DNA of 64,000 bases from contig NZ_NSKE01000004.1 of the NCBI RefSeq assembly GCF_002287075.1, positions 248,001-312,000 of the forward strand. Reading direction: 5' to 3'. The position numbers and the translations under genes were made by a program. Below the pieces are notes generated by a model, which worked only from the letters and a program-made list of their open reading frames with translations, was not told the DNA's origin and searched no databases. Shown in pieces: positions 27,515 through 63,818 of the stretch. The DNA is from Fodinibius salipaludis. GTDB lineage: Bacteria > Bacteroidota > Rhodothermia > Balneolales > Balneolaceae. Numbering within the stretch: position 1 is the first letter of the stretch; each line of letters begins with the position of its first letter.

Positions 27515-27940
27515 TTGCCTATGGCAGACGTACACGAACCGGAAGTTCGAAGTTACAATATGAGCCAGATCACAGGCAAAGATACCAAGCCTGAGATGAT
27601 GGTTCGTAAATTTTTACATTCGAATGGATTTCGTTATCGACTTCATGTCAAAGATTTACCGGGCAAACCAGATTTAGTGTTACCAAAGTATAATTCTGTT
27701 ATATTCGTCCATGGCTGTTTCTGGCATGCGCATGAGAATTGCGAATTTTTTAACATTCCGAAAACAAGAACCGAGTGGTGGAAGGAAAAACTCTATGGGA
27801 ATAAAGAACGCGATGAAAGAAATATTTAAAAACTTAAAAAAGAGGGCTGGAATGTTATTATCGTTTGGGAATGTGAATTAAAGTCGAACAAAAAAGAAAC
27901 TTTAAAAAACTTAGTAGAAGATTTAGAAAATAATAAATGA
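27515..27940 (+). pseudogene. vsr: Very-short-patch repair endonuclease, interrupted by an in-frame TAA
   Basis: Vsr nicks 5' of the T in T:G mismatches that arise by deamination of 5-methylcytosine. The reading frame has the Vsr core: NMSQITGKDTKPEMMVRKFL, GKPDLVLPKY with the catalytic Asp, FVHGCFWHAH, and the zinc-site region up to NKERDERNI. A TAA at 27827-27829 then stops translation. The same frame continues without another stop as KLKKEGWNVIIVWECELK and on to TGA at 27938, which is the normal Vsr C-terminus. That final TGA overlaps the methyltransferase ATG by 4 bp, showing the ancestral full-length gene. The 104-aa product may be inactive, or the stop could be a sequencing error. Confidence 0.85.
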
Positions 27941-29697: not shown

Positions 29698-29699
29698 CT

Positions 29700-29828
29700 C
29701 CACCAATACGTATACAGATAAAATATTATCCCTGTATGTATTATATAGCCATATATATTTCTATACAGTTGATATATTATTAATATATGACTATTATGTC
29801 TTCTACTTTCAAAGAGTATTAGTATTCT
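29700..29828 (+). promoter_or_regulatory. Palindrome-rich internal promoter/operator region of the island
   Basis: Between the methyltransferase and the 77-aa gene lie ATACAG-N14-CTGTAT (29712-29737), another ATACAG at 29763-29768, and a perfect 17-bp palindrome ATATATTA-T-TAATATAT at 29772-29788. This is the only sizeable gap in the island, so a second, separately controlled transcript for the ATPase half is plausible. Confidence 0.45.
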
Positions 29829-30062
29829 ATGGCTTCAAAAAGCAAAAAAAGAAAACGATTTGAAAAGGTTGCGGGCAAACGAGTTCAATTCATTCTTGAT
29901 AAACTCGAGTTATTGGGGAACTGCGCAAATAGTAGCAACTATGAGTATTCTGAAGATGATGTAAAAAAAATGTTTAGCGCAATAAGGAGTAGAACACGAC
30001 AAGTGGAGGCTCTATTTCAAGATGAATTATCAAAAAAAGATAATAGTAAATTTAAATTTTAG
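29829..30062 (+). CDS. Small basic helical protein, 77 aa, unknown
   Basis: It starts MASKSKKRKRFEKVAGKR, a strongly basic helix, followed by VQFILDKLELLGNCANSS and an acidic YSEDDVKKMFSAIRSR helix. The pattern suggests a small all-helical DNA- or protein-binding factor. No catalytic residues are seen. It ends 11 bp before the GHKL ATPase gene, and the ATPase ATG is preceded by AGGAG, so the two are cotranscribed. Its place between the methyltransferase and the ATPase makes it a likely accessory subunit or regulator, but this is inference. Confidence 0.75.
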   Translation: MASKSKKRKRFEKVAGKRVQFILDKLELLGNCANSSNYEYSEDDVKKMFSAIRSRTRQVEALFQDELSKKDNSKFKF

Positions 30063-30073
30063 GAGTTCTTAAT

Positions 30074-32047
30074 ATGAAATTGATGTGGGGTGCAGAAACT
30101 GAAAATAAAGGCTGGCAAGGACTTAATAATGCAGCAATAAATACATTTAATAGCAATGTAATTAATTCCTTAGTCAGAGAAATGTTTCAAAATTCAATTG
30201 ATGCACGGAATAAACTGGCTGGGAATTCCCAGATTGGTGATAAGCCTACAAAAATTAAACTAAGAAAGTTCTCTATTGATAAAGAACAGTTCCCCTCGTA
30301 CCAAGAATACCGTGAAATTTTAGATTTAGTTTCTAATTCTGGGCCTAACAAAAAACATAGAACTTTTTTCAATAATGCATTTAACGAACTCGATAATAAA
30401 TCTAAAATAACATTATTCGGATTTGAAGATTATCATACTCCTGGCCTTTCGGGAGATGATAATGATCCAGAGTCTTCATTCAGTTCATGTGTATTATCTG
30501 AAGGAACTTCCATCAATAAAGATGACACCGCTGGTGGTAGTTATGGAATAGGTAAAAATGCTATTTTTGGTTTCTCAAAAACTAGAACTGTCTTCTACTC
30601 ATCACTAAATCCACATGATGAATTCATATTCCAAGGTGTAGCAAAACTTGCTTCTTTTAAAGATAAAAATGGTAAGCAATATGGCTACAGGATTTATTGC
30701 GGAAAAGGAAATAAACAAAAGTCTATTAGAGATATAAAAGAATTGCCTTCAAACTGTAAAAATATATTTAAAAGAGATGATTGGGGATTATCTCAATATG
30801 CCGTCTGCCCAATACTTAGAAAGGGGTGGCAAAAAGCGTTTATTAAAGCAATACTTAGAAATTATTGGATGTTGCTAGAGGAAGGAGAACTTGAAGTTGA
30901 AATTTATGACGAAGGAGAAAGGATATTTTTCATTAACAGTGAAAATTTAGAGAAATACCTTTTAAAATATTTTGCCCCAGAGGAATATGCTCCAGAAGAC
31001 ATTGAACCCGATGGAAATCCTTATGATTATTACAAAGCTTTTAAAAAATCCGAGCCAATAATTAAAGAAGTTGATGGTCTTGGCACTGTCCAATTTCATT
31101 GCCTTGAATTAGAACATCAAAATACAAATAGAATTGCCTATTTGAGAAATGGTATGACTATTTATACAGACAGTGAATGGGGGTTTGGTTCCATTGGTTA
31201 TTGTGGTGTTTTTTACTGCTCTAATCAAAAAGGTAATTCTGTATTAAGATTGATGGAACCTCCTACACACGATGCATTTGAACCCGAAAAGCTCGATGAA
31301 AGATCAGAAGATTTTACCTTCAAAGATGGTGAAAAAATACTTAAAAAGATTAAAAGTATTGTCAGAGAACCTTTGAAAAAAATTAAAGATAAATACAAGG
31401 AACCGGCTGAGGATATACCTTGGTTAGATGATTTGCTGAAATCTATGATTGGAGAGAATAATAGCGGAATTGGGAAGCGTACAGGTGAAAAATCGGAAGA
31501 AGAAACAACTCAAAAACTTGGACGTGATATAGATATGGATGTAAGTTTTGAATCCAAAAAGGGTAATACATTTATTAATAACAAAAACGATGACAACACA
31601 GATGAAGGTGGAGGTGTAGATGAAGGTTCAGGAGGTGGTAAAAGAAAAGGAGGTAAGAAAACCAAGAACAAAAATAGCAAAGGAGGGGGCCCCTATGGAG
31701 AACAACAGACTAATAAAACTAATATAAACAGCCGCATCTTTATCACCGATAAATCCGAACAGATAGATTCAAAAAAATTTAAAAAGTACAAAGTAATTCT
31801 AGAGTCTGAAGAAGATTTGAAACCAAACGATTTAATGCTGTCCCAACAAGGTGATAGTGGCGAATTAGTTGATTATGAACTGGGGAAGGTTACTGACATA
31901 AACGGAAATAAGTTGAATTTCAAAAAAAACAAAAATAGTAAAGGAGAAATTACATCTTATGTTATCGAAAAAGTCTCTATTCCAAATCAGTTATTTATAT
32001 ATGTAAATGAGCCTTATAAAAGCAGTTTTAAAATCGTAAAAGGTTAA
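30074..32047 (+). CDS. MORC/MutL-like GHKL ATPase
   Basis: The N-terminal 250 residues form a GHKL (Bergerat) ATPase. The N box REMFQNSIDARNK (about 35-47) provides the Mg-binding Asn. A G1-like FGFEDYHTPGLSGDD lies at about 115-129, and the lid GGSYGIGKNAIFGFS at about 154-168. An S5-like transducer region follows (about 330-410, with NRIAYLRNGMTIY). A long low-complexity, Gly/Lys/Asp-rich linker occupies about 480-560, with a beta-rich end. Prokaryotic MORC-like GHKL ATPases are known from restriction-modification neighbourhoods (Iyer, Abhiman and Aravind 2008). Here it is probably the ATP-driven clamp of the system. It has a good AGGAG ribosome-binding site. Confidence 0.82.
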   Translation: MKLMWGAETENKGWQGLNNAAINTFNSNVINSLVREMFQNSIDARNKLAGNSQIGDKPTKIKLRKFSIDKEQFPSYQEYREILDLVSNSGPNKKHRTFFNNAFNELDNKSKITLFGFEDYHTPGLSGDDNDPESSFSSCVLSEGTSINKDDTAGGSYGIGKNAIFGFSKTRTVFYSSLNPHDEFIFQGVAKLASFKDKNGKQYGYRIYCGKGNKQKSIRDIKELPSNCKNIFKRDDWGLSQYAVCPILRKGWQKAFIKAILRNYWMLLEEGELEVEIYDEGERIFFINSENLEKYLLKYFAPEEYAPEDIEPDGNPYDYYKAFKKSEPIIKEVDGLGTVQFHCLELEHQNTNRIAYLRNGMTIYTDSEWGFGSIGYCGVFYCSNQKGNSVLRLMEPPTHDAFEPEKLDERSEDFTFKDGEKILKKIKSIVREPLKKIKDKYKEPAEDIPWLDDLLKSMIGENNSGIGKRTGEKSEEETTQKLGRDIDMDVSFESKKGNTFINNKNDDNTDEGGGVDEGSGGGKRKGGKKTKNKNSKGGGPYGEQQTNKTNINSRIFITDKSEQIDSKKFKKYKVILESEEDLKPNDLMLSQQGDSGELVDYELGKVTDINGNKLNFKKNKNSKGEITSYVIEKVSIPNQLFIYVNEPYKSSFKIVKG

Positions 32048-32053
32048 TGAACT

Positions 32054-32863
32054 ATGAAAACAGATTTTTCTTTTCCTCACCCAGTCCTTGGATCTAACGA
32101 TGATATTGAAGGTAAATTTAACGTTAACCTATCAATAACAAGAGAGCCAGAAACTAGGGAAATAGTGTTTAAGTTTGTAAAGCTCGATGTGAATAACGAC
32201 TATTTTGACCATCTATTAAATAAAGAACTTGCTGGTCCATTTGTTAAAATATATTGCAGTTCAACTTTAAACACATGGACCTTTTATAATCAGGCAACAA
32301 TGAAAATAAATGAAGATGAAATCATTAATCATGTAGATATTGATGTACGCATTTTATCTCTTGTTGATGGGTTAGAATACTTCCATGAATCTTTTAACAG
32401 TCAATATGGGAAACAAAAATTTATAGTAAATAAAAATGATGTTTTAGGTACTTTAGATAAAGAAAGAGTGCCTATACCCAAAGAAGATGAGAAGCTGGGA
32501 TTAGGAAACATTTTTAAGTTTAAAACCCATGATAATTCAGATAAGGCATTAGAAGTGGATGCTACTAACGATGAATATATAGAAATAACTTATCCACCTT
32601 TGAATGGAGAGCATCCTCATACGTACATGTTCAAAACATATCCATGGACTGCCTATAATATATTTATACTGCCTGCTTTAGAAGAAGCTTTCAGATTTAT
32701 AGATGAGCAAAAAGAAACAGCAAGCCAATTCAAGTGGTTTAATGTGATCGATAAACTCTTACCTGAAAAAGAAAGGACTGGCAATCATTTTATTGACGCA
32801 CAGATCCTATTAGAAGGTGAAATACCTTTACTTAAATCTTACAAAGAGATATCAAAAAATTAA
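32054..32863 (+). CDS. 269-aa island protein, unknown, beta-rich
   Basis: No family is recognised. The first two thirds alternate short hydrophobic and charged strands (FNVNLSITREPETREIVFKFVKLDV, split by turns), suggesting a beta-sandwich or barrel. The last third is helical, with YPWTAYNIFILPALEEAFRF and WFNVIDKLLP. No nuclease motif such as PD-(D/E)xK, HNH or HKD is apparent by eye. The gene starts 6 bp after the ATPase stop and ends 19 bp before the DUF6339-like gene, so it is an integral part of the operon. It may be the partner bound by the ATPase. Confidence 0.8.
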   Translation: MKTDFSFPHPVLGSNDDIEGKFNVNLSITREPETREIVFKFVKLDVNNDYFDHLLNKELAGPFVKIYCSSTLNTWTFYNQATMKINEDEIINHVDIDVRILSLVDGLEYFHESFNSQYGKQKFIVNKNDVLGTLDKERVPIPKEDEKLGLGNIFKFKTHDNSDKALEVDATNDEYIEITYPPLNGEHPHTYMFKTYPWTAYNIFILPALEEAFRFIDEQKETASQFKWFNVIDKLLPEKERTGNHFIDAQILLEGEIPLLKSYKEISKN

Positions 32864-32882
32864 AAAGAAGCTCCGATATTAA

Positions 32883-33620
32883 ATGAAAGAAAACATTCAA
32901 ATATTGTCGAAAGAGTGTTGCTCACAATTGTTAGACTTTCAATCATCAGAAGACCTGAGAAAAGAATACAATAAAGCCTCTTTTAATACTAAACATTTAG
33001 AATTTTTAAATATACCTACTGACTATTATATAGACAAAAACTTGGAATTACCGACAGGGTCAAAAAAAGATAGATCTACCGCTGACTGTGAAAGTAGTAT
33101 TAAAATATTTCAAGAATTAAAAAACTTAACACCTGTACAGGCAAACGATAAAAGGCTTTGGTTATCACTTACTCATGATAGATTTTTTAGCTATACCATA
33201 AGAAGGTGGGGTATAGATTCTAGTACATCTGCTAATACTATCATAGATAGATTCTTTTTTGAAGGTGCTAGCATAGAAACCAGAATGAGAAATAGTATTT
33301 CCAGACTATGGTGGGCGGCAAAATTAACCTATGACCCAAATAGAAAAGATGAATTTGAATTAACAAAATTACTGTGGAGTAAACAGGATCTCTTTCAGGG
33401 TTTAGTTGAAAGGACGTTTGGGACGTATGAAAACGTTGTTAAAGCATTTTTACAGATATATGCTGATAACAATCAACTTACTGAAGATCAGCTTCGGGAT
33501 TTGTACAAAAGCTTGAACAGTATTGGAGGGGTTAAATTGCTATCTGCATTATCATATAAAGAGGTGAAATCAGAGCTACAATTAATTGCAAATCATAAGA
33601 ATATAGAACTGTATGCATAA
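32883..33620 (+). CDS. DUF6339-like protein
   Basis: A 245-aa, all-alpha-looking protein. The stretch LWLSLTHDRFFSYTIRRWG, then RFFFEGASIETRMRNSISRLWWAAKLTYD and ELTKLLWSKQDLFQGLVERTFG (each interrupted here by short gaps), matches what I recall of the DUF6339 family, which occurs in defence-gene neighbourhoods. The conserved Arg/Trp pairs could form a nucleic-acid or nucleotide site, but no catalytic activity is established. Its 3' end overlaps the next gene by 8 bp, which implies coupled translation. The family name is from memory and not checked. Confidence 0.65.
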   Translation: MKENIQILSKECCSQLLDFQSSEDLRKEYNKASFNTKHLEFLNIPTDYYIDKNLELPTGSKKDRSTADCESSIKIFQELKNLTPVQANDKRLWLSLTHDRFFSYTIRRWGIDSSTSANTIIDRFFFEGASIETRMRNSISRLWWAAKLTYDPNRKDEFELTKLLWSKQDLFQGLVERTFGTYENVVKAFLQIYADNNQLTEDQLRDLYKSLNSIGGVKLLSALSYKEVKSELQLIANHKNIELYA

Positions 33621-48898: not shown

Positions 48899-49843
48899 TC
48901 ATTTCTTTTTAAGATATTGCAGAGAAAAATAACTCTTATCATCCGTCCACACTTTCTCTACCGAATACCAATCAGCAACCAACTCCTCAAATTCCTCAAG
49001 ACCATACTTATATGAACTTTCGGTATGGATCGATTCGCCCTTCTCAAACGCTATTCTCTGATCCCCAATAGTAACCGTCTGTTTTTGGGATGATATCAGA
49101 TGCATTTCAATGCGTCCGGCCTCTTCATTATAAAACGCCTTGTGCCTAAACTTTTCGATATCAAAATCGGCACCCAATACTCGATTAAGGTGTGTCAACA
49201 TATTTTTATTGAACTGAGCTGTAATACCTTGCTTATCATTATAAGCCGCTTCCAGCACCTTCGGATCTTTCTTCAAATCCACCCCCACAAGCATCTCTGA
49301 ATCATCAGCGGTAATGCCTGCCATATTATTCAAAAATACCTGTACCTCTTCGGGATCAAAATTACCAATCGTCGAACCCGGAAAAAATACGACCTGTTTC
49401 TGGTTTGAACCTTCTGTAACCGGCAGATCAAAATTTGATGTGTAATCTGCAAAAACAGGAATAATAGATATTTTTGGATATTCCAGGCGCAATTGACTAA
49501 CCGTCTTCAACAAAAATTCTTCTGAAATATCAACCGGTATATAGGTGGAAAGGTCTGATAACTCTTCGAGCAAAAACCGGGTTTTGTAACTGCTTCCACT
49601 GCCCAGCTCTATCAGCATCACATCTTTACCAATACACCCTGCAATATCTTTAATATTATTTTGCAGGATCTCCTTTTCGCAATCGGTAAGATAGTATTCA
49701 TTGAGACGAGTAATCTGTTCAAACAGATCTGACCCCTTTTCGTCGTAAAAATACTTGCTGGGCAGCTGTTTTTGAGACTTGGTCAATCCTTCCAACACCT
49801 CTTTTTGCATAATACTGGCATCGACCGACGAAAGATCTTCCAT
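48899..49843 (-). CDS. egtD: L-histidine N-alpha-methyltransferase (EgtD)
   Basis: Trimethylates histidine to hercynine, the first step of ergothioneine synthesis. It has the EgtD-type N-terminal block SKYFYDEKGSDLFEQITRL, NEYYLTDCE, motif I MLIELGSGSSYKTRFLL, YIPVDISEEFL and FFPGSTIGNFDPEE. The length of 314 aa is typical. No egtB or egtE gene is in the window, so ergothioneine synthesis from this gene alone is not shown. Oxidative-stress protection is the expected role. Confidence 0.92.
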   Translation of the reverse strand: MEDLSSVDASIMQKEVLEGLTKSQKQLPSKYFYDEKGSDLFEQITRLNEYYLTDCEKEILQNNIKDIAGCIGKDVMLIELGSGSSYKTRFLLEELSDLSTYIPVDISEEFLLKTVSQLRLEYPKISIIPVFADYTSNFDLPVTEGSNQKQVVFFPGSTIGNFDPEEVQVFLNNMAGITADDSEMLVGVDLKKDPKVLEAAYNDKQGITAQFNKNMLTHLNRVLGADFDIEKFRHKAFYNEEAGRIEMHLISSQKQTVTIGDQRIAFEKGESIHTESSYKYGLEEFEELVADWYSVEKVWTDDKSYFSLQYLKKK

Positions 49844-50723: not shown

Positions 50724-51674
50724 TTATCCAATAAATCCAAGAACCGACTGCGGGCCGTTGTTGGCCTGCGCCAGCGAAGAGGTTGCCGTCTGCTGCAAGA
50801 TCTGCAGTCTCACGGACTCACTCTGGGCCTTCGCAAAGTCGGTATCCATAATTCGGGACTTCGCCGACTCATTTGCACTGATCGACTCCGAGAGCGTCTG
50901 CTCACGTACCGACAGCGACGATTGGGTAATACCAATGTCATTCACGTTCTCCGACATCGTCGTAATCGCTTCATCTATCTTTCCGATAAATGAACGGTAA
51001 TCCTCGGAATTCGCTGTAGAAGCAAAGGTCAATCCACCGGCATCATCCGTATCCGCAGCCTGAGCCTGAATAGCTCCGGCCGTTGCTCCTAAGTCTACCG
51101 TTGCACCGGCCGCCGTACCTGAGGCAAAAAGCTCACCCACATTCACTGCACTCAGATCGGCCGTAATCGTATCTGATTCTCGCTCACCAACCTGGAACGT
51201 AAGCGACAGTGTTCCTGACATGGTACCCGTTGCATCATCCCCGTTGAGAAGTTCATAATCTTGGTACACGGTCTGATCAGCGATCTTATTGATGTCATCA
51301 CCCAACGCTTTGAGCTGATCACCAATAAACCCACGCTCATCATCACCAAGCGTATCGTTGGCCGCCTGGGTGGCCAATCCTTTCATTTCTACCAGGTTAT
51401 CCATCACCGTACCAAAGCTTGACTCGGCAATATCCAAGACCGACTTGGCATCTCCAACATTCTGCATCGCCTGGTTCAAGCCGCCGATACGACTGCGCAA
51501 CTTCGTGGCAATCGAGAAGCCGGCCGAATCGTCTTCGGCGCGGTTAATCCGCTTACCCGTCGACATCTTCAGCTGGTTCTCGGCCATCTGCTTGTTAATC
51601 TTGTTCAGCGACAGCTGCGAGTCCAGCGACTGAATGTTTGTGTTTACCCTGTTTAAATCTCCAAAACTTGCCAT
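50724..51674 (-). CDS. fliC: Flagellin 1
   Basis: The filament subunit exported through the flagellar type III system. The start is the ATG of MASFGDLNRVNTNIQSLDSQ, as in its three paralogues; an upstream in-frame extension to 51728 is leader sequence. The N-terminal coiled region (residues 1-150) and the C-terminal ND1 end (SVREQTLSESISANESAKS to QSVLGFIG) are conserved. The middle (about 165-240) is variable, Gly/Ala/Thr-rich and short, so outer D2/D3 domains are minimal. The length is 316 aa. It is preceded by a sigma-28-type promoter and followed by a strong terminator. Confidence 0.95.
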   Translation of the reverse strand: MASFGDLNRVNTNIQSLDSQLSLNKINKQMAENQLKMSTGKRINRAEDDSAGFSIATKLRSRIGGLNQAMQNVGDAKSVLDIAESSFGTVMDNLVEMKGLATQAANDTLGDDERGFIGDQLKALGDDINKIADQTVYQDYELLNGDDATGTMSGTLSLTFQVGERESDTITADLSAVNVGELFASGTAAGATVDLGATAGAIQAQAADTDDAGGLTFASTANSEDYRSFIGKIDEAITTMSENVNDIGITQSSLSVREQTLSESISANESAKSRIMDTDFAKAQSESVRLQILQQTATSSLAQANNGPQSVLGFIG

Positions 51675-51732
51675 AACGTTTTTCTCCGTTTTTTTGTTAG
51701 TAATACATTTGTTACTTCCTGCTTGCACTGTG

Positions 51733-51762
51733 GTTATCGGGGCCCCACAGGCCGACTTAAAT
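51733..51762 (-). promoter_or_regulatory. Sigma-28 (FliA)-type promoter of flagellin 1
   Basis: On the minus strand TTTAAGTC and CCCGATAA form -35 and -10 boxes, matching TAAA-N15-GCCGATAA. The same arrangement lies in front of each flagellin gene. Confidence 0.8.
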
Positions 51763-51950: not shown

Positions 51951-52003
51951 TGTTTCCCAAAAAGCCTTGTAAGTAATGCCACATGAAAGAGTCCTACTAT
52001 ACT

Positions 52004-52297
52004 ATGGCAAAAAAGTATCACGTATATATTATTACCAATACTCACCACACCGTTCTCTACACCGGTGTAACAGGAGATATCCTCAAAAGAGGTTGGCAAC
52101 ACAAACAAAAATTGGTAGATGGCTTCACCAAGCGCTACAACTGCACGAAGTTGGTATACATAGAAGAATACGATCACCCACAAGGCGCTATTGTCTGGAA
52201 GAAACAGATAAAGGCGGGTTCCAGACAACATAAAATTGACTTTATAGAAAACCTGAATCCCCACTGGAAGGATTTGTATGAGGAACTCCTTCCCTAA
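52004..52297 (+). CDS. GIY-YIG nuclease-domain protein (UvrC N-terminal-like)
   Basis: A 97-aa single-domain GIY-YIG protein starting MAKKYHVYIITNTHHTVLYT. The GIY-like YIITN and YIG-like YTGVTGDILKRGWQHKQ are followed by YIEEYDHPQGAIVWKKQIK, with the catalytic Glu in the usual place. A 7-codon upstream extension to 51983 is possible. It is encoded opposite to the surrounding flagellin genes and is bracketed by copies of the GTCATT repeat. This association is known for repeat-linked GIY-YIG ORFs in Bacteroidota. It is probably a mobile or repeat-maintenance element, not a flagellar gene. Confidence 0.85.
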   Translation: MAKKYHVYIITNTHHTVLYTGVTGDILKRGWQHKQKLVDGFTKRYNCTKLVYIEEYDHPQGAIVWKKQIKAGSRQHKIDFIENLNPHWKDLYEELLP

Positions 52298-52699: not shown

Positions 52700-53665
52700 T
52701 TACCCACCAATAAATCCGAGTACGGACTGCGGCCCGTTGTTAGCCTGTGCCAGCGAGGAGGTTGCCGTCTGTTGCAAGATCTGCAGTCTCACGGACTCAC
52801 TCTGGGCCTTCGCAAAGTCGGTGTCCACAATTCGAGACTTCGCCGACTCATTCGCACTAATCGACTCCGAGAGCGTCTGCTCGCGTACCGACAGCGACGA
52901 CTGAGTAATACCAATGTCATTCACGTTCTCCGACATCTTTGTAATTGCATCATCAACCTCAGTAATAAATGCTCGATAATCAGCAGAGTTCGCGGTTCCA
53001 GCTGCTGCAAAATCGAGTTCTCCTCCTTTATCTGCAGTTGCCGCCGAAACTGAAATATTTCCTCCAGCAGTACCTAACGTATTATCTGCAGCAGTAGGAT
53101 CATCAGCAAACAACGTTGCTACATTTACCGCATTTAATTCTGCTTCAATTATATCAGAAGTTCGTTCACCAACTTGAAAGGTTAGCGTAGTAGATCCGGT
53201 TTTAATCGCTGTATCATCATCATTATTATCTCCGCTCAGCAGTGAATAATCTTGATAGACGGTTTGATCGGCGATATTATTGATGTCATCACCTAACGCT
53301 TTGAGCTGATCACCAATAAATGCTCGCTCATCATCACCAAGCGTATCGTTGGCTGCCTGCGTGGCCAAGCCTTTCATCTCCACCAGGTTATCCATGATGG
53401 AACCAAAGCTCGATTCGGCAATATTCAAAACCGACTTGGCATCACCCACGTTCTGCATCGCCTGGTTCAAGCCGCCGATACGACTGCGCAACTTCGTGGC
53501 AATCGAGAAGCCGGCCGAATCGTCTTCGGCGCGGTTAATCCGCTTACCCGTCGACATCTTCAGCTGGTTCTCGGCCATCTGCTTGTTAATCTTGTTCAGC
53601 GACAGCTGCGAGTCCAGCGACTGTATGTTTGTGTTTACCCTGTTTAAATCTCCAAAACTTGCCAT
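52700..53665 (-). CDS. fliC: Flagellin 2
   Basis: 321 aa, with the same N- and C-terminal ND0/ND1 blocks as the other three flagellins (MASFGDLNRVNTNIQSLDSQ at the start). The variable centre (about 150-245) is the most divergent of the four: GDNNDDDTAIKTGSTTLTFQ and AAGGNISVSAATADKGGELD are its own. It also differs by Asn for Asp in NIAESSFGSIMDN. It ends in GFIGG, one residue longer than its paralogues. A sigma-28-type promoter lies about 55 bp upstream. It may form a distinct filament segment. Confidence 0.95.
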   Translation of the reverse strand: MASFGDLNRVNTNIQSLDSQLSLNKINKQMAENQLKMSTGKRINRAEDDSAGFSIATKLRSRIGGLNQAMQNVGDAKSVLNIAESSFGSIMDNLVEMKGLATQAANDTLGDDERAFIGDQLKALGDDINNIADQTVYQDYSLLSGDNNDDDTAIKTGSTTLTFQVGERTSDIIEAELNAVNVATLFADDPTAADNTLGTAGGNISVSAATADKGGELDFAAAGTANSADYRAFITEVDDAITKMSENVNDIGITQSSLSVREQTLSESISANESAKSRIVDTDFAKAQSESVRLQILQQTATSSLAQANNGPQSVLGFIGG

Positions 53666-53715: not shown

Positions 53716-53746
53716 GTTATCGGAACTCCACAGGACGACTTAAATA
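53716..53746 (-). promoter_or_regulatory. Sigma-28-type promoter of flagellin 2
   Basis: On the minus strand TTAAGTCG and TTCCGATAA boxes are separated as in the other flagellin promoters. Confidence 0.78.
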
Positions 53747-53925: not shown

Positions 53926-54906
53926 TTATCCAATAAATCCGAGAACCGACTGCGGGCCGTTGTTGGCCTGCGCCAGCGAGGAGGTCGCCGTCTGCTGCAA
54001 GATCTGCAGTCTCACGGACTCACTCTGGGCTTTCGCAAAGTCGGTATCCATAATACGGGACTTCGCCGACTCATTCGCACTGATCGACTCCGAGAGCGTC
54101 TGCTCACGTACCGACAGCGACGACTGCGTAATTCCGATGTCGTTTACGTTTTCCGACATCGTCGTAATCGCGCTGTCTACTGCTCCAATAAACGATCGGT
54201 AATCAGCAGAATTGGCCTCTGTATTACCACTCGCTCCGTTAAAAGTAAGAGATCCCCCTCCCCCGGCGGTAGCTTCTTCAGCAAAAATAGCTGAATTACC
54301 TGAGGTAATAGCACCTGCTGAAGTGTCTCCTAAACCTGTTGTTGCTGCACCACTTGAAAACAACTCCCCAACATTCACGGCATTCAAACTAGCTTCAATG
54401 GTATCAGATTCTCGTTCACCAACCTGAAAGGTAAGAGAAAGTGTTCCAGATAACGTCCCGGTAGTATCATCGCCATTCAACAGCTCATAATCCTGGTACA
54501 CCGTCTGGTCAGCTATTTTATTAATATCTTCTCCTAAAGCTTTAATCTGGTCGCCAATAAAAGAACGTTCATCTTCTCCCAACGTATCGTTGGCCGCCTG
54601 CGTAGCCAATCCTTTCATCTCTACCAGGTTATCCATGACCGTACCAAAGCTCGACTCGGCAATATCCAAGACCGACTTCGCATCGCCCACGTTCTGCATG
54701 GCCTGGTTGAGTCCGCCAATGCGGCTGCGCAACTTTGTGGCAATCGAAAAGCCCGCCGAATCGTCTTCGGCGCGGTTGATCCGCTTACCGGTTGACATCT
54801 TCAGCTGGTTCTCGGCCATCTGCTTGTTAATCTTGTTCAGCGACAGCTGCGAATCCAGCGACTGTATGTTGGTGTTTACTCTGTTTAAATCTCCGAAACT
54901 TGCCAT
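53926..54906 (-). CDS. fliC: Flagellin 3
   Basis: 326 aa, with the same conserved ends as its paralogues. The centre (about 155-245) is Gly/Ala/Thr-rich with SSGAATTGLGDTSAGAITSG and EEATAGGGGSLTFNGASG. Its first 110-150 codons and about 85 bp of leader are near-identical in DNA to those of flagellin 4, which suggests recent duplication or gene conversion. The start has an AGAGGAG ribosome-binding site 5-7 bp upstream. Confidence 0.95.
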   Translation of the reverse strand: MASFGDLNRVNTNIQSLDSQLSLNKINKQMAENQLKMSTGKRINRAEDDSAGFSIATKLRSRIGGLNQAMQNVGDAKSVLDIAESSFGTVMDNLVEMKGLATQAANDTLGEDERSFIGDQIKALGEDINKIADQTVYQDYELLNGDDTTGTLSGTLSLTFQVGERESDTIEASLNAVNVGELFSSGAATTGLGDTSAGAITSGNSAIFAEEATAGGGGSLTFNGASGNTEANSADYRSFIGAVDSAITTMSENVNDIGITQSSLSVREQTLSESISANESAKSRIMDTDFAKAQSESVRLQILQQTATSSLAQANNGPQSVLGFIG

Positions 54907-54960: not shown

Positions 54961-54990
54961 ATTATCGGAGCCCCTCAGGCCGACTTAAAT
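54961..54990 (-). promoter_or_regulatory. Sigma-28-type promoter of flagellin 3
   Basis: On the minus strand TTTAAGTCGG and CTCCGATAA boxes are seen. The sequence is the same as before flagellin 4. Confidence 0.8.
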
Positions 54991-55234: not shown

Positions 55235-56194
55235 TTATCCAATAAATCCAAGTACGGACTGCGGACCGTTGTTGGCCTGCGCCAGCGATGAGGTCGCCGT
55301 CTGCTGCAAGATCTGCAGTCTCACGGACTCACTCTGGGCTTTCGCAAAGTCGGTATCCATAATGCGGGACTTCGCCGACTCATTCGCACTGATCGACTCC
55401 GAGAGCGTCTGCTCGCGTACCGACAGCGACGACTGCGTAATTCCAATGTCGTTTACGTTTTCCGACATCGTCGTAATCGCACTATCGACTGAACTTATAA
55501 ATGAACGATAATCAGCAGAATTTGCATCTGTAGCAAAGGTTAAAGTACCTTGGCCTGATGTTGTTGCAGCTGAAGCATCAATAGCAGCACCACCAACACT
55601 TGCACCACCGGCCGTAGTACCTGCCCCAAGATCAGCATCACCACCACTGGCAAATAGTTCACCAACATTCACGGCAGTTAGATCTGCCTCAATGGTATCT
55701 GATTCTCGCTCTCCAACCTGAAACGTGAGTGATAAATCACCCGTCATACCAGCAGTACCACCATTCAACAGCTCATAATCCTGGTACACCGTCTGGTCAG
55801 CTATTTTATTAATATCTTCTCCCAGTGCTTTTAACTGGTCGCCAATAAAAGAACGTTCATCTTCTCCCAACGTATCGTTGGCCGCCTGCGTAGCTAATCC
55901 TTTCATCTCTACCAGGTTATCCATGACCGTACCAAAGCTCGACTCGGCAATATCCAAGACCGACTTCGCATCGCCCACGTTCTGCATGGCCTGGTTGAGT
56001 CCGCCAATGCGGCTGCGCAACTTTGTGGCAATCGAAAAGCCCGCCGAATCATCTTCGGCGCGGTTGATCCGTTTACCGGTTGACATCTTCAGCTGGTTCT
56101 CGGCCATCTGCTTGTTGATCTTGTTCAGCGACAGCTGCGAATCCAGCGACTGTATGTTGGTGTTTACTCTGTTTAAATCTCCGAAACTTGCCAT
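55235..56194 (-). CDS. fliC: Flagellin 4
   Basis: 319 aa. The N- and C-terminal filament core segments are conserved with the other three. The middle (about 155-240) has GGDADLGAGTTAGGASVGGA and SAATTSGQGTLTFATDANS. It is the first of the four in transcriptional direction. The upstream 80 bp and the 5' third of the gene are near-identical to flagellin 3. The large OGT-fusion gene follows upstream on the same strand, 870 bp away, consistent with glycosylation of these filament proteins. Confidence 0.95.
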   Translation of the reverse strand: MASFGDLNRVNTNIQSLDSQLSLNKINKQMAENQLKMSTGKRINRAEDDSAGFSIATKLRSRIGGLNQAMQNVGDAKSVLDIAESSFGTVMDNLVEMKGLATQAANDTLGEDERSFIGDQLKALGEDINKIADQTVYQDYELLNGGTAGMTGDLSLTFQVGERESDTIEADLTAVNVGELFASGGDADLGAGTTAGGASVGGAAIDASAATTSGQGTLTFATDANSADYRSFISSVDSAITTMSENVNDIGITQSSLSVREQTLSESISANESAKSRIMDTDFAKAQSESVRLQILQQTATSSLAQANNGPQSVLGFIG

Positions 56195-56248: not shown

Positions 56249-56279
56249 ATTATCGGAGCCCCTCAGGCCGACTTAAATA
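56249..56279 (-). promoter_or_regulatory. Sigma-28-type promoter of flagellin 4
   Basis: On the minus strand TTTAAGTCGG and CTCCGATAA boxes are seen, as for the other flagellins. Confidence 0.8.
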
Positions 56280-57064: not shown

Positions 57065-60000
57065 TTATCGCAAAATATGTTTGTTGATGTACTTAACAGT
57101 ACCAACTCCATTTACTTTTGCCACTTCAGTAGAATAGATGCAAAAATCATGTAAGAGAGCATCTATTTCCCTTCGATCTTCCTCAGTATGATATTCAAGC
57201 ATTATAACCTTTGTCTTATCAAGCAGTTTTTTCATCCCTTTTAGAATTGGAATCTCTGCCCCTTCTGTATCGATTTTCAACACATCAATGGCCTCTATTC
57301 CTTTTTCTTTTAAAGCCCTTCCCGCATTTTTTACTTCAACGGTAACCTCTTTAGCACCTTTTACCTTTTGTGAAGTAGTGCTTTGCCCGGTGTTTACAGG
57401 GTGTTGCAACAGGGTCAACTCTCCATCATCTTCGCCTAGTGCAATAAACTCTTTCTCAACATTTTCAATGTCTTTGGTATTAAATTTCAACAATTGAACA
57501 ACCTGCGGATTCGGTTCAAAGCAATATATCATCGCATTCGAGTTCCAGTGTCTGGCATACATAGCAAATGTGCCAATATTTGCTCCTATATCTACAATTA
57601 CTCCATCATTTTTTATTTTGAAATTCTTGGGAAGAGCATATTCATGATCTAAAACAATATTTTTGAGACGGAACAGCTCTCTTTTAGGAATATCAAAATA
57701 ATACGGGTTTCCATTTGATAGATAATGGAGATTAATTTTCGTTCGGATTACTTGGGATGGGGTTTCATTATATTCTGAAACCTCACCGACCAAGCTAATT
57801 GATTGTGCACTTTCTCTATCATTCTTTTTGTAATTATTTTCATTTTTATAAGCGCTATCTCTCGAGATTAAATTTTTATTTTCTTTTTGGGCCTTACTTG
57901 CTAATTCTGCTAGCTTTTCCACATAGCTTGATGCCTCCGGATTTCCCCTCAATGCCTCCAACATTTTTCTACTCTTCTCATCAATGAGATACATCGTGGG
58001 ATTTTGTAGTATAATCCAAGCCTCAACAATTCGAACAGTCAACCACTTTGAAAAATCCGTTTCAATATCAGTTTCATCCTGCTCGGTAAGGGGCAAAAGA
58101 AAAGGCAGTTCAACCGAAAATGTACCACCAGAATTCATTGTCTCCATTAACTCTTTTACCATTTCCAAGGCCTGCTTACGTTTACCCAAATGATTCATTA
58201 CGCGCACGTAAGTCATTGCCGTAGCAATACTAGCATTTCCACTATTAAATAGTGCAATTAACTTTTGAGCTGCCTCAAGCAACAAAGCTCCTTTACGGGA
58301 TCGGGCCTGGGGATTATCATTACAAACAGATATTTCTTCTGCAGCACAAGTCAAGCTCAATGCCTGCAGATATTCGTCAAAAATACCTTCATCAATATCT
58401 TCCTTCCATTTATTTAGCTGCTTCTTTGCCCACGGCATTTTCTCTAAATACCTTTCCCACATGTACAAATCCGTGTCCCCAACATCAACACTTTCATCAA
58501 AAATCCATCCACTTTCTTTAAACTCTTGTATCCTACTTTCGTGAATAGCAATCACATTCATTAAATGGGGATCAACTTCCACTTCGGAATCATGGGCGAC
58601 CAATACTCCGAGTTGCGGGATATATTCAAATAACCGATAATTAATCTTCTGCAATGAATTTCGGAGCATCGGCAAACTATTATTCTTTTCACCAATAGAG
58701 ACAAGAATAACTGGTAACAATTGATCAATAACTTCTTTAGCCCCTTCTAAAACCTTTGACTCCATACCATTAGCATCAACTTTAAGCAAGTTTAGTTGCG
58801 GCTGGCCGGCGAAGTTCCACCAAGCGTCGAGAGTGGTAAGTAATACTTTCTCCTTCCCTTCTTCTGAAATTGTATTAAGTTCTGGCGTTTCAGCTTGAAT
58901 CAGTGCTGATTTACCAATTTCATCTGACAATCCACGTCCAATTATCTCCAGCTGATTAAAACTGTTTTTAGTCTTGCTTTTTTCAAGATATGAGCGATTT
59001 TCAGCAGAAGGCTCAAATGCAAATACATTTCCTTCCCGTCCAACCTTTTTTGCCATCGGCAAGGCATAGGCACCAAAAGAGGCTCCCACATCCACCACCT
59101 GCATGTCAGACTTCAAATAATCACGAACAAAATCCAGTTCGGGCTCAAACCACTGCCCCTGCTCAAGCATTACATATGTAGTTAGCACATCTAAATCTGG
59201 AGGCGTACAAATAGTCACATCATCCTTTGTATCTATATAATAGTCATTTTTGTTAAGGAGCGATTTTTCTGAATGACCACTTGTCTTCTGCTTTTTAGCA
59301 TGAGTTCCATTTTCATTTGTTACCAACTTCTCTGTATCAATCGCCGGCTGTTTCATCATATTATTCTTGTCAGTTTTCTTACTTCCTTCTGTTTTATTTT
59401 CTTCCTTAATTGTGATTAGCGAAGTTCTATCCGGTCCATCTGTCAACTCCTGGATTTGTTCTTGTGGTAGATTGTCAACCCGAATATGGTCTTTCCACTC
59501 TGCCTCATCATTTTGATAACCTTCTACTCGCTGCCTCCACATTTCGCGAAAGGCTATCGACAGATGAGCACCAAAACGTTTACTATCACAAACAGCCGAA
59601 TTGCATAACTTTCCACGCAATATTGACCGCCATTCCTGCAGCGCATCCCAGTCATTCGCCAAAGCAACCGTTCTCTCGGTATATTCTTTCCAACTATCTG
59701 TGACCCACTGTTCTAATCCTGCATTCATCAGATGGGTTGTTGAATGGCGTCCTGCAAAGGTAGGTCCGGGCATGGTAATAACAGGCACTCCCATATAAAG
59801 AGCTTCGCAAGTAGTTAGGCCTCCTGAATACGGCCAGGGATCTAAGGCAATATCGACCTTATTATATGCATCCAAGTGATCGTCATGAGAAGTATGTCCC
59901 TCAAATTCTACCCGATCTTCAGCAATATCCTCCTCTTTCATCACTTCCAGGATTTGCTTTCGGAATGAAGCTGTATCATACTGCTTACTCTTCAGGCATA

Positions 60001-61585
60001 GCTTACTATCTGGAACCTGACGCATTATTTGCGCCCATTTTCTCAAAACTACATCATTTACTTTGGTGGGATTATTAAAACACCCAAACGTTATATATCC
60101 ATTCTCTTTTGCAGGAAGAGATTGTACATCCGGAGCATAGGCCGGGGGCACAAATGAAATATAGTCATCAGGCATTCTTACCAGCTTTTCTGTATAAAAC
60201 TCTTCTTCTCCTGCCGGACTTTCATATTCGTCAGTAATCAAGTAGTCAAATGCTTCGAGACCTGTAGTGTTAAATAGTCCACCCACCCATTTCACGATCA
60301 CTGGGGCCGGCTCATTAGCCATTACCTCCATACAGTTATCAGCGGCATGCCCAGACAGGTCCACTACAATATCCAGTTCATCATCACGAATAATATTTTC
60401 AATTACATCAGCATTATACCCTACAACCGACCGCCACGTATTTATATTTTCATGAATACGGCGGGTAACAAAATCGAACTTATTGTTAGTCGTATAGCAG
60501 TAGATTTCAAAATCTTTCTCAGGCAGTTGCTCTAAGGCACCGGCAATCATCCAGCCTACCGGATGACGACGAAATCCTCCTGATAAAAACCCTACTTTTA
60601 ACTTTTTATTGGGATCGGCATCAGATGGTCTTGGACGCCCTTCCGTATTCCGGGGAACAAATGTTTTTCCAAGCCTCAAATGTTCCTCATATATATGCTC
60701 TTTACCATTTCGAGGATTATAATGCAATCCCATCAGATAATTTGAAATTGCATTGCGAGGGTCTTGCATATCTTCAATAGCACGTCGGTAATTCTTTTCG
60801 GATTGGTCAAACCGACTTACCTCTTGCAAACATAAGGCGTAGTTTACGCGAAGAGCTCCGCTATGAGGATGCTTGTTCAATAACTTTTCATATAACTCAA
60901 TAGCATCATCATACTTACCACGTGATTTATAAATTTCGGCTTTGCTTACCCTGATTGAGGTTCGAGCTCCATGCATCTTCTCAGCTTGATCCAGATTTTC
61001 AATAGCTTCATCCAGATTTCCTTTATTCTTATAAAGATCTGCCTTTTCAAGCATCGCTCGAATATGAGTTTCATCTATCTTCAAGGTGATATCAAATAAT
61101 TTCATGGCCTGATCCAAATCACCCTGATCGCGGTAAATTTCACCTATCCGAAAAGCCACCCCTGCATTTGTGGCGTCAATCTGATTCGCTTTTTGGTAAC
61201 ATTCCAACGCCTTGTCCAGCTTGGCCTGCGCTCGATAAATGGAGCCCAAATTCAGCCAAGCTTTAAAAAAACCCTCTTTTCGGGCCACCGCCTCTCTTCC
61301 ATATTTTTCAGCCTCATCAAACCGTGCCAGATTATAATAGTTAATAGAAAGCATATGATGAGTTTCCGGCTCCTTAGAACCATATTTCACTGACTTTTCG
61401 AGATAACCGGCCGAAGCCTCATGTTCACCTTTTAGCGATAAAGCAATCCCCATCATATGATAAGGTACCCACTTAAACTGTTGTTGTATTTCCCTACTTT
61501 CTAATGTGGGCTTCAATTCGGCAATAGCTTGGTTGGGCTTTTTCCACTCTAAATATTTTTGGGCTTGCTTGATCTTATTCTGCAC
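57065..61585 (-). CDS. TPR - O-GlcNAc-transferase-like (GT41) - FkbM methyltransferase - FkbM methyltransferase fusion
   Basis: A 1506-aa multidomain protein. Residues 1-300 are about eight TPR repeats (for example AWLNLGSIYRAQAKLDKALE). Residues 328-690 are a GT41/SPINDLY-type glycosyltransferase: KVGFLSGGFRRHPVGWM, DIVVDLSGHAADN, TFGCFNNPTKVND and ALDPWPYSGGLTTCEALYMG (about 579). A linker rich in Lys/Asn/Thr follows. Residues about 800-1010 form an FkbM-type methyltransferase (VDVGASFGAYALP, about 828), and residues 1290-1500 a second one (VDIGANIGTFAMYAR, about 1330, and VLKIDTEGAEIPILKG). The neighbours are four flagellins and fliS-fliD, so O-glycosylation of flagellin followed by glycan O-methylation is the likely role. 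Confidence 0.88.
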   Translation of the reverse strand: MQNKIKQAQKYLEWKKPNQAIAELKPTLESREIQQQFKWVPYHMMGIALSLKGEHEASAGYLEKSVKYGSKEPETHHMLSINYYNLARFDEAEKYGREAVARKEGFFKAWLNLGSIYRAQAKLDKALECYQKANQIDATNAGVAFRIGEIYRDQGDLDQAMKLFDITLKIDETHIRAMLEKADLYKNKGNLDEAIENLDQAEKMHGARTSIRVSKAEIYKSRGKYDDAIELYEKLLNKHPHSGALRVNYALCLQEVSRFDQSEKNYRRAIEDMQDPRNAISNYLMGLHYNPRNGKEHIYEEHLRLGKTFVPRNTEGRPRPSDADPNKKLKVGFLSGGFRRHPVGWMIAGALEQLPEKDFEIYCYTTNNKFDFVTRRIHENINTWRSVVGYNADVIENIIRDDELDIVVDLSGHAADNCMEVMANEPAPVIVKWVGGLFNTTGLEAFDYLITDEYESPAGEEEFYTEKLVRMPDDYISFVPPAYAPDVQSLPAKENGYITFGCFNNPTKVNDVVLRKWAQIMRQVPDSKLCLKSKQYDTASFRKQILEVMKEEDIAEDRVEFEGHTSHDDHLDAYNKVDIALDPWPYSGGLTTCEALYMGVPVITMPGPTFAGRHSTTHLMNAGLEQWVTDSWKEYTERTVALANDWDALQEWRSILRGKLCNSAVCDSKRFGAHLSIAFREMWRQRVEGYQNDEAEWKDHIRVDNLPQEQIQELTDGPDRTSLITIKEENKTEGSKKTDKNNMMKQPAIDTEKLVTNENGTHAKKQKTSGHSEKSLLNKNDYYIDTKDDVTICTPPDLDVLTTYVMLEQGQWFEPELDFVRDYLKSDMQVVDVGASFGAYALPMAKKVGREGNVFAFEPSAENRSYLEKSKTKNSFNQLEIIGRGLSDEIGKSALIQAETPELNTISEEGKEKVLLTTLDAWWNFAGQPQLNLLKVDANGMESKVLEGAKEVIDQLLPVILVSIGEKNNSLPMLRNSLQKINYRLFEYIPQLGVLVAHDSEVEVDPHLMNVIAIHESRIQEFKESGWIFDESVDVGDTDLYMWERYLEKMPWAKKQLNKWKEDIDEGIFDEYLQALSLTCAAEEISVCNDNPQARSRKGALLLEAAQKLIALFNSGNASIATAMTYVRVMNHLGKRKQALEMVKELMETMNSGGTFSVELPFLLPLTEQDETDIETDFSKWLTVRIVEAWIILQNPTMYLIDEKSRKMLEALRGNPEASSYVEKLAELASKAQKENKNLISRDSAYKNENNYKKNDRESAQSISLVGEVSEYNETPSQVIRTKINLHYLSNGNPYYFDIPKRELFRLKNIVLDHEYALPKNFKIKNDGVIVDIGANIGTFAMYARHWNSNAMIYCFEPNPQVVQLLKFNTKDIENVEKEFIALGEDDGELTLLQHPVNTGQSTTSQKVKGAKEVTVEVKNAGRALKEKGIEAIDVLKIDTEGAEIPILKGMKKLLDKTKVIMLEYHTEEDRREIDALLHDFCIYSTEVAKVNGVGTVKYINKHILR

Positions 61586-62081
61586 AATCTAAAGTATTTC
61601 GTTAATTTTGGTAGTGTACTACACCAGATGTGTTCACAAATAAAATGCCAAGGTCCTCATCGCCTCTGCCGCGCTTATATGGTATATAAATAGGGTATTC
61701 GCTTCCTGGTAGCGGAACTTTTTTCTTCAAAGGGGAATATTACGTTAGAGAACAGAACAACCTTTAAAAAAATGGTGCCAACAGTTGTACTTATGCTTAT
61801 GCCGACAAATTATTCAACCGTGAGCATCAGAGGCCTCTAATGCTTCAAAGTTGCGAAATAATCCGATCATCACCGGACCAAAAGTGGTTCTGATACTCAT
61901 AACTAAGAGGTAACTCAAAGTAGATCCAAAGAAACAATGTGCTGGCATATTATTTGCATATTTAGTAGCAAACGAGGTCGTATAGATTAGAGAGTTCTAA
62001 TCCATAAAGGCTTAAGTTTTTACAGACTCAGTCGATAATGACTGGTACCTAAGACAAAAATAATATCGAAATTTAAGTACC
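61586..62081 (+). promoter_or_regulatory. Divergent intergenic region; sigma-28-type promoter for fliS-fliD
   Basis: At 62012-62038 TTAAGTTTT and GTCGATAA form a sigma-28-like promoter about 45 bp before the fliS start. The rest of the 496-bp gap holds no gene and no repeat seen elsewhere in the window. Any promoter for the OGT-fusion gene would lie at its left end. Confidence 0.7.
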
Positions 62082-62402
62082 ATGCAGAATCCACAACAGG
62101 TTTATCAGCAACAAGCGATCATGAACGCATCGCCCCTACAGCTGGTCGTAAAATTATATGACTTGCTACTGCAGGCAACCTATCGAAAAGATCAAAATAG
62201 GGTGCGTGACGTACTAAACACCCTGACGGAAAGCCTGAACTTTGATCACGAACCTGCTGAGGAACTTTTCCAACTTTATCAATATTGCCAGGATTTAGCA
62301 CGTGATGAAAATTATGAGGAGATCCGGGAAATTCTTGAACCACTGAGAGATGCTTGGGAACAAGCCTCAAAAGGGCAAACAGAAGAACAAGCAGCTGATT
62401 AA
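62082..62402 (+). CDS. fliS: Flagellar export chaperone FliS-like protein
   Basis: A 106-aa all-helical protein. The start MQNPQQVYQQQAIMNASPLQ, followed by VVKLYDLLLQAT, matches the FliS N-terminus (Y-x2-x6-A-S-P-x2-L-V-x-x-L-Y-D). FliS binds newly made flagellin in the cytosol and delivers it to the export gate. The acidic C-terminal helix (WEQASKGQTEEQAAD) is typical. It is first in an operon with fliD (18 bp gap) and lies behind a sigma-28-type promoter. Confidence 0.88.
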   Translation: MQNPQQVYQQQAIMNASPLQLVVKLYDLLLQATYRKDQNRVRDVLNTLTESLNFDHEPAEELFQLYQYCQDLARDENYEEIREILEPLRDAWEQASKGQTEEQAAD

Positions 62403-62420
62403 ACAACTAAAGATGATATC

Positions 62421-63818
62421 ATGAATTCTATCAGTAGCTTATTACAACAGTCTAATCCCTACTCGCAATTTGTTGACCAGCTGGTTTTAATCGAGAGCCA
62501 AAAGAAGTTCAGATTAGAAGACCAGAAAAGTCAGCTCAGTAAGAAACAGTCTGCTCTTAGCACCGTAAGTTCCGTTATTTCTGATTTTACCTCTCAGGTT
62601 GATGAGCTTACCAGCACTACCTCAAATAGCTTTAACCCGCTAAAAGCTACCATAAGTAACGAAGAAGCCATCCGGGTTGACTCCATATCGGGACTAAACG
62701 ATCCGAATACATATGATATCTCAGTGAATCGAAAAGCCTCAAAAGATATTATGCTGTCGAATGTAATGGATGGGACGGCTACGAATCTGGCAGCTAGTGG
62801 AGATGGCTCTGTTGATATTACCATTGGTGATAAAACACAAACAATAAGTATTCTAAGCACCAATGACGACGGTACGGACAAAACAAACAAAGAAATTTTA
62901 GAATCGTTTTCTAAGGCTGTCAATAATTTAATGGGCGAAGAGTCTGACAGTGATGTTTTTGAAGTGGACAATAACGGTAATGTACAGCTGTCGATAAAAA
63001 GTGCGCAGACTGGTTATGATGAACGCGTCCAATTTGCCAATGCCACGGGAGCACTTGCAGATGTTACTGGAAACATGTCGCATCAACAAACAGATACGAC
63101 AAACCTCGATGCTGAATTCACAGTAGACGGAATTACATTTAGCCGTGGGAAAAATACCGTTGATGATGCCATCTCGGGCATGACCTTTACATTACTGAAT
63201 TCGACAACCCAGCAAGAGCAAATTACGGTCTCAAAAGATACTGAAAAGGCCCGCGAAAATATTGATGATTTCATTTCTAAATACAATGAAATGAATACCA
63301 AAATTCGCAACCAAACCTTCATCAATGGTGAGACCGGCAATAAAGGCCCGCTGCAGGATATGCGCTCTGTTCGTAATTTGACTATAAATATGCGTCAAAT
63401 GGCACTTACGGATATGGCTTCTACAGCAACAGGAGAGCTTAACAATCTCTCTCAACTTGGCATCACCTTCGAAAACAATGGAAAGATGAAAGTTGAAGAC
63501 TCGGAAAAGCTCAGCAAAGCTTTATCTGAGAAACCCAACGAAGTTAAGAATCTATTTACCAACGATGACTCTCCTGTTACGAAGATGTATGAACGCGCGA
63601 AGACGTTTACTGAAACAGGTGGTACCATTTCATCGCTGGAAAGCGGTTTGGATCAAAAAATTGATTTTCTGGATAATCGTATTGAGTCGGAAAATAAATA
63701 TCTGGAACGGTATGAGGAGCGCCAACGCGAAATTTTTGCTGAAATCAACCAGATGCAACAACAAGCTCAGCAACAGTTTAATCAAATTGCGAATCAACAA
63801 TCCACATTAGGATTCTAA
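62421..63818 (+). CDS. fliD: Flagellar filament cap protein FliD
   Basis: The filament cap (hook-associated protein 2), which folds and inserts flagellin at the filament tip. The N-terminal helix QNPYSQFVDQLV-type region (NPYSQFVDQLVLIESQ) and a middle with beta-rich D2/D3-like repeats (NTVDDAISGMTFTLLNSTT is diagnostic of FliD) are present. The C-terminal coiled coil FLDNRIESENKYLERYEER, then Gln-rich QMQQQAQQQFNQIANQQSTL, matches the family. The length of 465 aa is normal. It overlaps no gene and is 1 bp from the next start. Confidence 0.93.
   Translation: MNSISSLLQQSNPYSQFVDQLVLIESQKKFRLEDQKSQLSKKQSALSTVSSVISDFTSQVDELTSTTSNSFNPLKATISNEEAIRVDSISGLNDPNTYDISVNRKASKDIMLSNVMDGTATNLAASGDGSVDITIGDKTQTISILSTNDDGTDKTNKEILESFSKAVNNLMGEESDSDVFEVDNNGNVQLSIKSAQTGYDERVQFANATGALADVTGNMSHQQTDTTNLDAEFTVDGITFSRGKNTVDDAISGMTFTLLNSTTQQEQITVSKDTEKARENIDDFISKYNEMNTKIRNQTFINGETGNKGPLQDMRSVRNLTINMRQMALTDMASTATGELNNLSQLGITFENNGKMKVEDSEKLSKALSEKPNEVKNLFTNDDSPVTKMYERAKTFTETGGTISSLESGLDQKIDFLDNRIESENKYLERYEERQREIFAEINQMQQQAQQQFNQIANQQSTLGF

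Follow-up and report, generated by a model that had tools for sequence, protein, structure and literature searches.

Domain organization and flagellar setting of the fusion gene

The window analyzed here, a stretch of 64,000 nucleotides from Fodinibius salipaludis, carries a single gene that joins TPRs, a GT41 glycosyltransferase domain and two FkbM-type domains in one polypeptide. Downstream of this gene the same strand carries four flagellin genes, and divergent fliS-like and fliD-like genes lie on the opposite side. The features are as follows.

50724–51728, minus strand: flagellin 1; the likely start is inside the open reading frame, at the methionine of MASFGDL
52700–53665, minus strand: flagellin 2
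53926–54906, minus strand: flagellin 3
55235–56194, minus strand: flagellin 4, the probable substrate, with flagellin N and C domains by HMM
56250–56275, minus strand: sigma28-like box before flagellin 4
54962–54987, 53717–53742 and 51734–51759: the same sigma28-like box before the remaining three flagellins
57065–61585, minus strand: fusion gene, TPR-GT41-FkbM1-helical domain-FkbM2, GTG start, 1506 aa
60716–61585, minus strand: TPR domain, residues 1–290, predicted flagellin-binding part (HMM; binding by analogy with FlmG, PMC7591256)
59516–60628, minus strand: GT41 glycosyltransferase domain, residues 320–690 (HMM and conservation of SPY residues)
58556–59251, minus strand: FkbM1, residues 779–1010, methyltransferase fold with altered motif III, predicted to be non-catalytic or altered
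57911–58555, minus strand: helical domain, residues 1011–1225, conserved as far as the exchange point
57836–57910, minus strand: exchange point, about residues 1226–1250, where identity to the nearest head relative drops from 0.5–0.8 to 0.12
57068–57763, minus strand: tail module FkbM2, residues 1275–1506, with intact FkbM motifs
62013–62038, plus strand: sigma28-like box TAAGT-N15-CGATAA before fliS
62082–62402, plus strand: fliS-like flagellin chaperone gene, the divergent neighbor, named by position and conservation
62421–63818, plus strand: fliD-like filament cap gene, named by position and conservation

Profile (HMM) searches recovered the TPRs at about residues 1–290 and Glyco_transf_41 up to about residue 690 (E = 1.8e-37), so that both the profile match and the TPR N-terminus used to assign GT41 membership are present, together with FkbM matches to PF05050 (8.6e-32) and, in two stretches, to TIGR01444 (1.1e-50). 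These searches bear out the initial annotation, which had described an open reading frame of this position, length and domain content without stating its strand; the two motifs that it quoted, VDVGASFGAY and VDIGANIGTF, both occur in the protein, and its placement of the gene beside four flagellins stands, with the flagellin N domain found by HMM in all four. A conserved helical domain between FkbM1 and FkbM2 (about residues 1011–1225) had been overlooked. The 3.58-Mb genome contains a single gene of this kind, whose FkbM pair provides the only FkbM domains there, and chance is excluded because the gene is conserved in a comparison of 58 genomes.

The motif TAAGT-N15-CGATAA matches with zero mismatches at five sites, before all four flagellins and fliS; shuffled sequences, with one mismatch allowed, average 1.5 matches. 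A sigma28-like promoter was also sought before the fusion gene in 21 loci and was found in none, so production of the enzyme probably does not depend on that of flagellin and perhaps precedes it, as has been reported for FlmG (PMC7591256).

Linkage of the constant region to the flagellum

Alignments divide the protein into a head, residues 1 to about 1225 (TPR, GT41, FkbM1 and helical domain), that relatives have in common, and a later part, the tail, that varies. Among 58 related genomes the head occurs in 22 of 28 with flagellins and in 1 of 30 lacking them (Fisher p = 1.5e-9, ignoring shared ancestry), the sole flagellin-negative carrier (G016) having a 652-aa TPR-GT41 protein with 30% identity. 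In fully visible Balneolota loci the gene adjoins fliS-fliD, with the order altered only in G001, where the fusion lies downstream of fliD. Six flagellated relatives are missing the head; in the five lacking the gene for which fliD was located, no head stands beside fliS-fliD, and in three of these five the flagellins lie immediately next to fliS, on its strand.

To cover other lineages, a GT41 alignment search of named genomes yielded 358 relatives, of which the best 80 loci were examined; the scan was built on two motifs of this subfamily and describes that subfamily rather than all GT41. The closest named loci among these 80 belong to uncultured Aliifodinibius and Fodinibius, members of the phylum Balneolota. 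The initial annotation had named a fusion lying away from flagellins in most genomes as the finding that would count against it; instead, by script, 77 of the 81 heads in the best 80 of 358 loci lie no more than 2.5 kb from a flagellin or fliS, and the remaining four are accounted for by a contig edge, a tandem second copy, an undersized flagellin open reading frame and a position next to fliD. Outside Balneolota, 53 of 58 heads of Proteobacterial relatives in this set lie within 500 bp of a flagellin. Minimal TPR-GT41 forms that end right after GT41 also stand beside flagellins (L165 and G033). The flagellin-gene linkage looked for in a FlmG-like enzyme is present.

A constant head with repeatedly exchanged tails

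Balneolota tails comprise FkbM; GT2 with a class-I methyltransferase; Glyco_trans_1_2, alone or with GT2; GT2 with an unnamed glycosyltransferase-like part; GT56; an APH kinase with a methyltransferase; a methyltransferase with a kinase; and an unassigned part with a kinase. On a tree of 28 heads, with tail labels assigned by hand from Pfam hits, at least 14 tail changes are needed; single-linkage clustering of tails, which merged multi-domain tails, was dropped. Among head pairs that are at least 60% identical, 72 of 114 have no tail similarity at an E of 1e-3, although the pairs overlap in membership and do not count as independent. The gene studied here (G000) and its nearest relative (G004) have heads that are 84% identical and tails that are unrelated, with identity of 0.12 beyond residue 1225, and mis-assembly is an unlikely cause because several carriers are cultivated strains. 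In cultivated Fodinibius, an FkbM tail occurs in F. salsisoli and F. sediminis and a GT2-GT1 tail in F. roseus. The tail has been exchanged repeatedly after about residue 1225.

Exchange appears to extend beyond the phylum. Comparing Balneolota with other phyla gave 97 tail matches; in the strongest, the tail of L031 is 53% identical to a Chromohalobacter tail while the heads are 41% identical, and the greater likeness of the tails suggests exchange between distant lineages. Among the 57 non-Balneolota tails in the best 80 of 358 loci, GT2 accounts for 12, FkbM for 9, sulfotransferase for 7 (the most frequent such model) and GT56 for 7. Judged from these sequences, the same design of constant head and varying tail is present in Proteobacterial relatives.

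The tail type matches adjoining sugar genes in several relatives, a non-statistical pattern over a handful of loci, observed by reading the genes between fusion and flagellins and profiling a selection of them. A GT56 tail is followed by WecE in G020; WecE is the aminotransferase for dTDP-Fuc4N, and the Fuc4NAc transferase WecF belongs to GT56. In G028 the genes after a GT2-type tail are RfbF, RfbG and RfbH, which belong to the CDP-dideoxyhexose route; after the GT1-type tails of G005 and G030 comes RmlA, and next sugar-modifying genes (hexapeptide transferase, DegT). No NCBIfam name was obtained for an FdtA-like gene near a GT1-type tail. Sugar genes of this kind are absent between fusion and flagellins in the FkbM-tailed loci G000, G002, G007 and G001.

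An altered and an intact FkbM domain

FkbM2 has intact motifs throughout, namely D-x-G-x-N-x-G (DIGANIG), F-E-P (FEP), D-x-E-G-x-E (IDTEGAE) and E-Y-H (EYH); searched by sequence against solved structures, it gave no match. FkbM1 keeps the D-x-G-A-x-x-G motif and E-P, and lacks the E-Y-H motif of FkbM2. In all intact members its motif III reads D-x-N-G, whereas FkbM-type tails have D-x-E-G in 13 cases and D-x-Q-G in 5. The domain is degraded in three relatives (L045, L076, L079), where the helical domain is retained, and absent in three others (L046, L077, L078). An AlphaFold model of FkbM1 with the helical domain (pLDDT 90) found its best PDB match in 2py6, an FkbM protein (E = 1e-6), with TM-scores of only 0.29 and 0.36.

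With a Glu or Gln in motif III and a motif IV taken as the mark of an active enzyme, a combination that FkbM1 does not have, FkbM1 is probably no working methyltransferase, on the assumption that these residues, and Glu in particular, are catalytic in FkbM. It may nevertheless have some activity, because the SAM-binding glycine motif is kept in most Balneolota members. The Proteobacterial domain that follows GT41 has no visible SAM motif and a methyltransferase-like predicted fold, and it aligns weakly with FkbM1 (probability 73, E = 3e-5), so a pseudo-methyltransferase arm behind GT41 may be old.

The GT41 domain and its sugar donor

The closest solved structure to the fusion protein is plant SPY (E = 3e-98). 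Like plant SPINDLY and human OGT, its nearest solved structures, the protein has the TPR-GT41 architecture of the family with the catalytic His and Lys (His495 and Lys665 in SPY) conserved, and residues equivalent to SPY H495, N661, N662, K665, K689, Y744 and E752 are invariant in all 21 heads tested. The three residues of the SPY donor signature (K689, A731, Y744) all occur in the fusion protein; across the family A731 varies and positions 747/748 differ from SPY. As SPY K689 has been tied to guanine and Y744 to the exclusion of N-acetyl sugars (PMC10027727, PMC9715652), the SPY-like residues argue against UDP-GlcNAc. Unlike SPINDLY and OGT, the family has Gly-Leu at SPY positions 747/748 (Thr-Thr in SPY), half of its carriers are missing GDP-fucose pathways, and its substrates presumably form a single bacterial class.

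GDP-fucose, prompted by the similarity to SPY, was rejected as the general donor of the family: of the 22 flagellated genomes with the head, 11 lack gmd, and none of the 58 genomes searched has the fucose salvage enzyme. GDP-fucose may be the donor in the present genome, which has gmd. Two other candidates were considered: dTDP-rhamnose via RmlA is not decisive, with RmlA in many and not all carriers, and GDP-mannose gives no discrimination, as a partial guanylyltransferase profile match occurs in most carriers and also in non-flagellated genomes.

A putative flagellin glycosylation enzyme and alternative readings

We consider it reasonably likely that the gene codes for a cytoplasmic enzyme of flagellin O-glycosylation, with a constant head and an exchangeable tail. 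This reading builds on the observed domain content, flagellum linkage, tail exchange, tail and sugar-gene match in several relatives and state of the domain motifs, from which we infer the substrate, the order of steps and the catalysis. The TPR superhelix would bind flagellin in its unfolded state, no later than the FliS stage, and the GT41 domain would attach a first sugar to Ser/Thr of flagellin. FkbM1 and the helical domain would form a structural arm, with catalysis absent or altered. The tail would complete the glycan after the GT41 step: here FkbM2 would be expected to yield an O-methylated sugar, and in relatives the tail may add a second sugar or another group. No reports on glycan, binding or activity for this organism were found in the literature searched.

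The initial annotation had suggested two active methylation steps, and its wider picture survives in part, as a TPR-GT41 enzyme that is linked to flagellin and carries a modifying domain at its C terminus. That FkbM1 and FkbM2 are both active and methylate two positions on one flagellin glycan is, in our assessment, unlikely: FkbM1 scores as FkbM (TIGR01444), keeps D-x-G-A-x-x-G and E-P and has a predicted fold closest to the FkbM crystal structure 2py6, yet the invariant Asn of its motif III where FkbM-type tails have Glu or Gln, its missing E-Y-H and its degradation in three relatives and absence in three more leave two-step methylation unsupported. Glycosyltransferase tails also stand behind the same FkbM1, so the presence of this domain does not track methylation.

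Two further readings concern the substrate and the tails. The proximity to plant SPY would suit a cytoplasmic OGT/SPY-type O-glycosyltransferase of general scope, which acts on many proteins and lies near flagellins incidentally; the absence of the head from 29 of 30 non-flagellated relatives and its locking to flagellin or fliS loci across phyla make this exceedingly improbable. It is also highly doubtful that the varying tails are neutral fusions to adjoining genes with no role in the flagellin glycan. Fusion is not obligatory, since GT56 is a separate adjacent gene in G032, G225 and G296, but the tail families are almost all glycan-modifying (GT2, GT56, FkbM, sulfotransferase), recur in two phyla and match adjoining sugar genes.

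Relation to known systems and significance

Two elements of this system are already known, the fusion of GT41 to a methyltransferase and the binding of flagellin by TPRs (PMC4875605, PMC7591256). GT41 proteins with methyltransferase domains are described from enterobacterial flagellin glycosylation islands (De Maayer and Cowan, 2016; PMC4875605), and the earlier statement that GT41 and FkbM enzymes are usually separate genes is therefore not fully right. Those islands, in the parts of the study on which we draw, likewise combine a SPINDLY-type GT41 and a methyltransferase domain in one protein at flagellin loci with strain-varying enzyme sets; the same parts treat whole genes in islands, unlike the constant head with exchanged tail, altered FkbM and fusion to further glycosyltransferases or kinases seen here. 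In Caulobacter FlmG, which glycosylates flagellins in the cytoplasm, the TPR part binds flagellin and the glycosyltransferase part transfers (PMC7591256). The likeness lies at the level of layout (GT-B in FlmG), whereas FlmG, at 596 aa, is a pseudaminic acid transferase without tail modules (PMC7591256). FkbM enzymes of the Geobacillus flagellin glycosylation island have been proposed to methylate flagellin glycans, and unlike FkbM2 they are separate genes, unfused to a transferase (PMC5109656). Pseudomonas syringae Fgt1 was considered as a characterized member, which was not established; the P. viridiflava locus adjoins flhA/flhB-like and motor-like genes and resembles that of a secondary flagellum. 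No account of the exchangeable-tail design came up in the literature searched, a search that most subscription journals lay outside, and the design may tentatively be regarded as new.

Whether the family as a whole constitutes a set of polymorphic flagellin glycan writers that crosses phyla is, to us, an evenly balanced question. Such writers would have a fixed head for docking and the first sugar, a pseudo-methyltransferase arm and interchangeable tails (methyl, second sugar, sulfate, phosphate) traded by recombination at a defined junction, and would allow a one-step change of the filament surface, for which phages that bind the flagellum or immune receptors are a plausible source of selection.

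Flagellin glycosylation varies strongly among closely related bacteria, and the route by which the glycan of one strain changes is unclear. A recognition part that stays constant, combined with finishing modules that can be exchanged, is a layout that resembles polymorphic toxins; it would give a strain a concrete route to a different flagellin glycan, and related bacteria could alter the surface of their flagella by exchanging a single protein module. The glycan type might then be predictable from the tail of a single gene, and these naturally occurring modules could be used to put selected sugars on flagellin-tagged proteins.

Sequence boxes and other genes in the window

Each of the four flagellins is preceded by an exact TAAGT-N15-CGATAA box, as is fliS, and none of the 21 loci has this box before the gene encoding the TPR-GT41-FkbM fusion protein.

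Exact TAAGT-N15-CGATAA boxes in the window
51734, minus, before a flagellin
53717, minus, before a flagellin
54962, minus, before a flagellin
56250, minus, before a flagellin
62013, plus, before fliS

Between two very similar flagellin genes lies a small ORF resembling a GIY-YIG nuclease (51983-52297, plus strand), and near the cluster is an EgtD-like histidine-specific methyltransferase (48899-49843, minus strand; PF10017, 371.7 bits). Elsewhere in the window (27937-33620), a DNA cytosine methyltransferase is followed by three genes matching A, B, and C of PDC-M33, a PADLOC candidate defence system, the third of which is DUF6339.

Arrangement of head and tail modules in relatives

Sulfotransferases are fused as the tail, the exchanged C-terminal part, in Proteobacteria, whereas in Balneolota they are separate genes adjoining the fusion (L032:12314-13030 and L034:5409-6389). 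In Alloalcanivorax profundimaris (L157:9218-16255), one flagellin is followed by two tandem genes (1187 and 1140 aa) for the head, the constant front part.

The heads at three loci (L046, L077, and L078) have neither FkbM1, the first FkbM stretch, nor the helical domain, and TPR and GT56 are encoded by the adjacent gene (profiled in L078); this arrangement is a natural split form. At two other loci, a separate 914-aa FkbM1-helical-Glyco_trans_1_2 protein without TPR-GT41 is encoded two genes from the fusion gene (L035:3807-6551 and L036:3276-6020). Tail enzymes may dock onto this FkbM1-helical unit.
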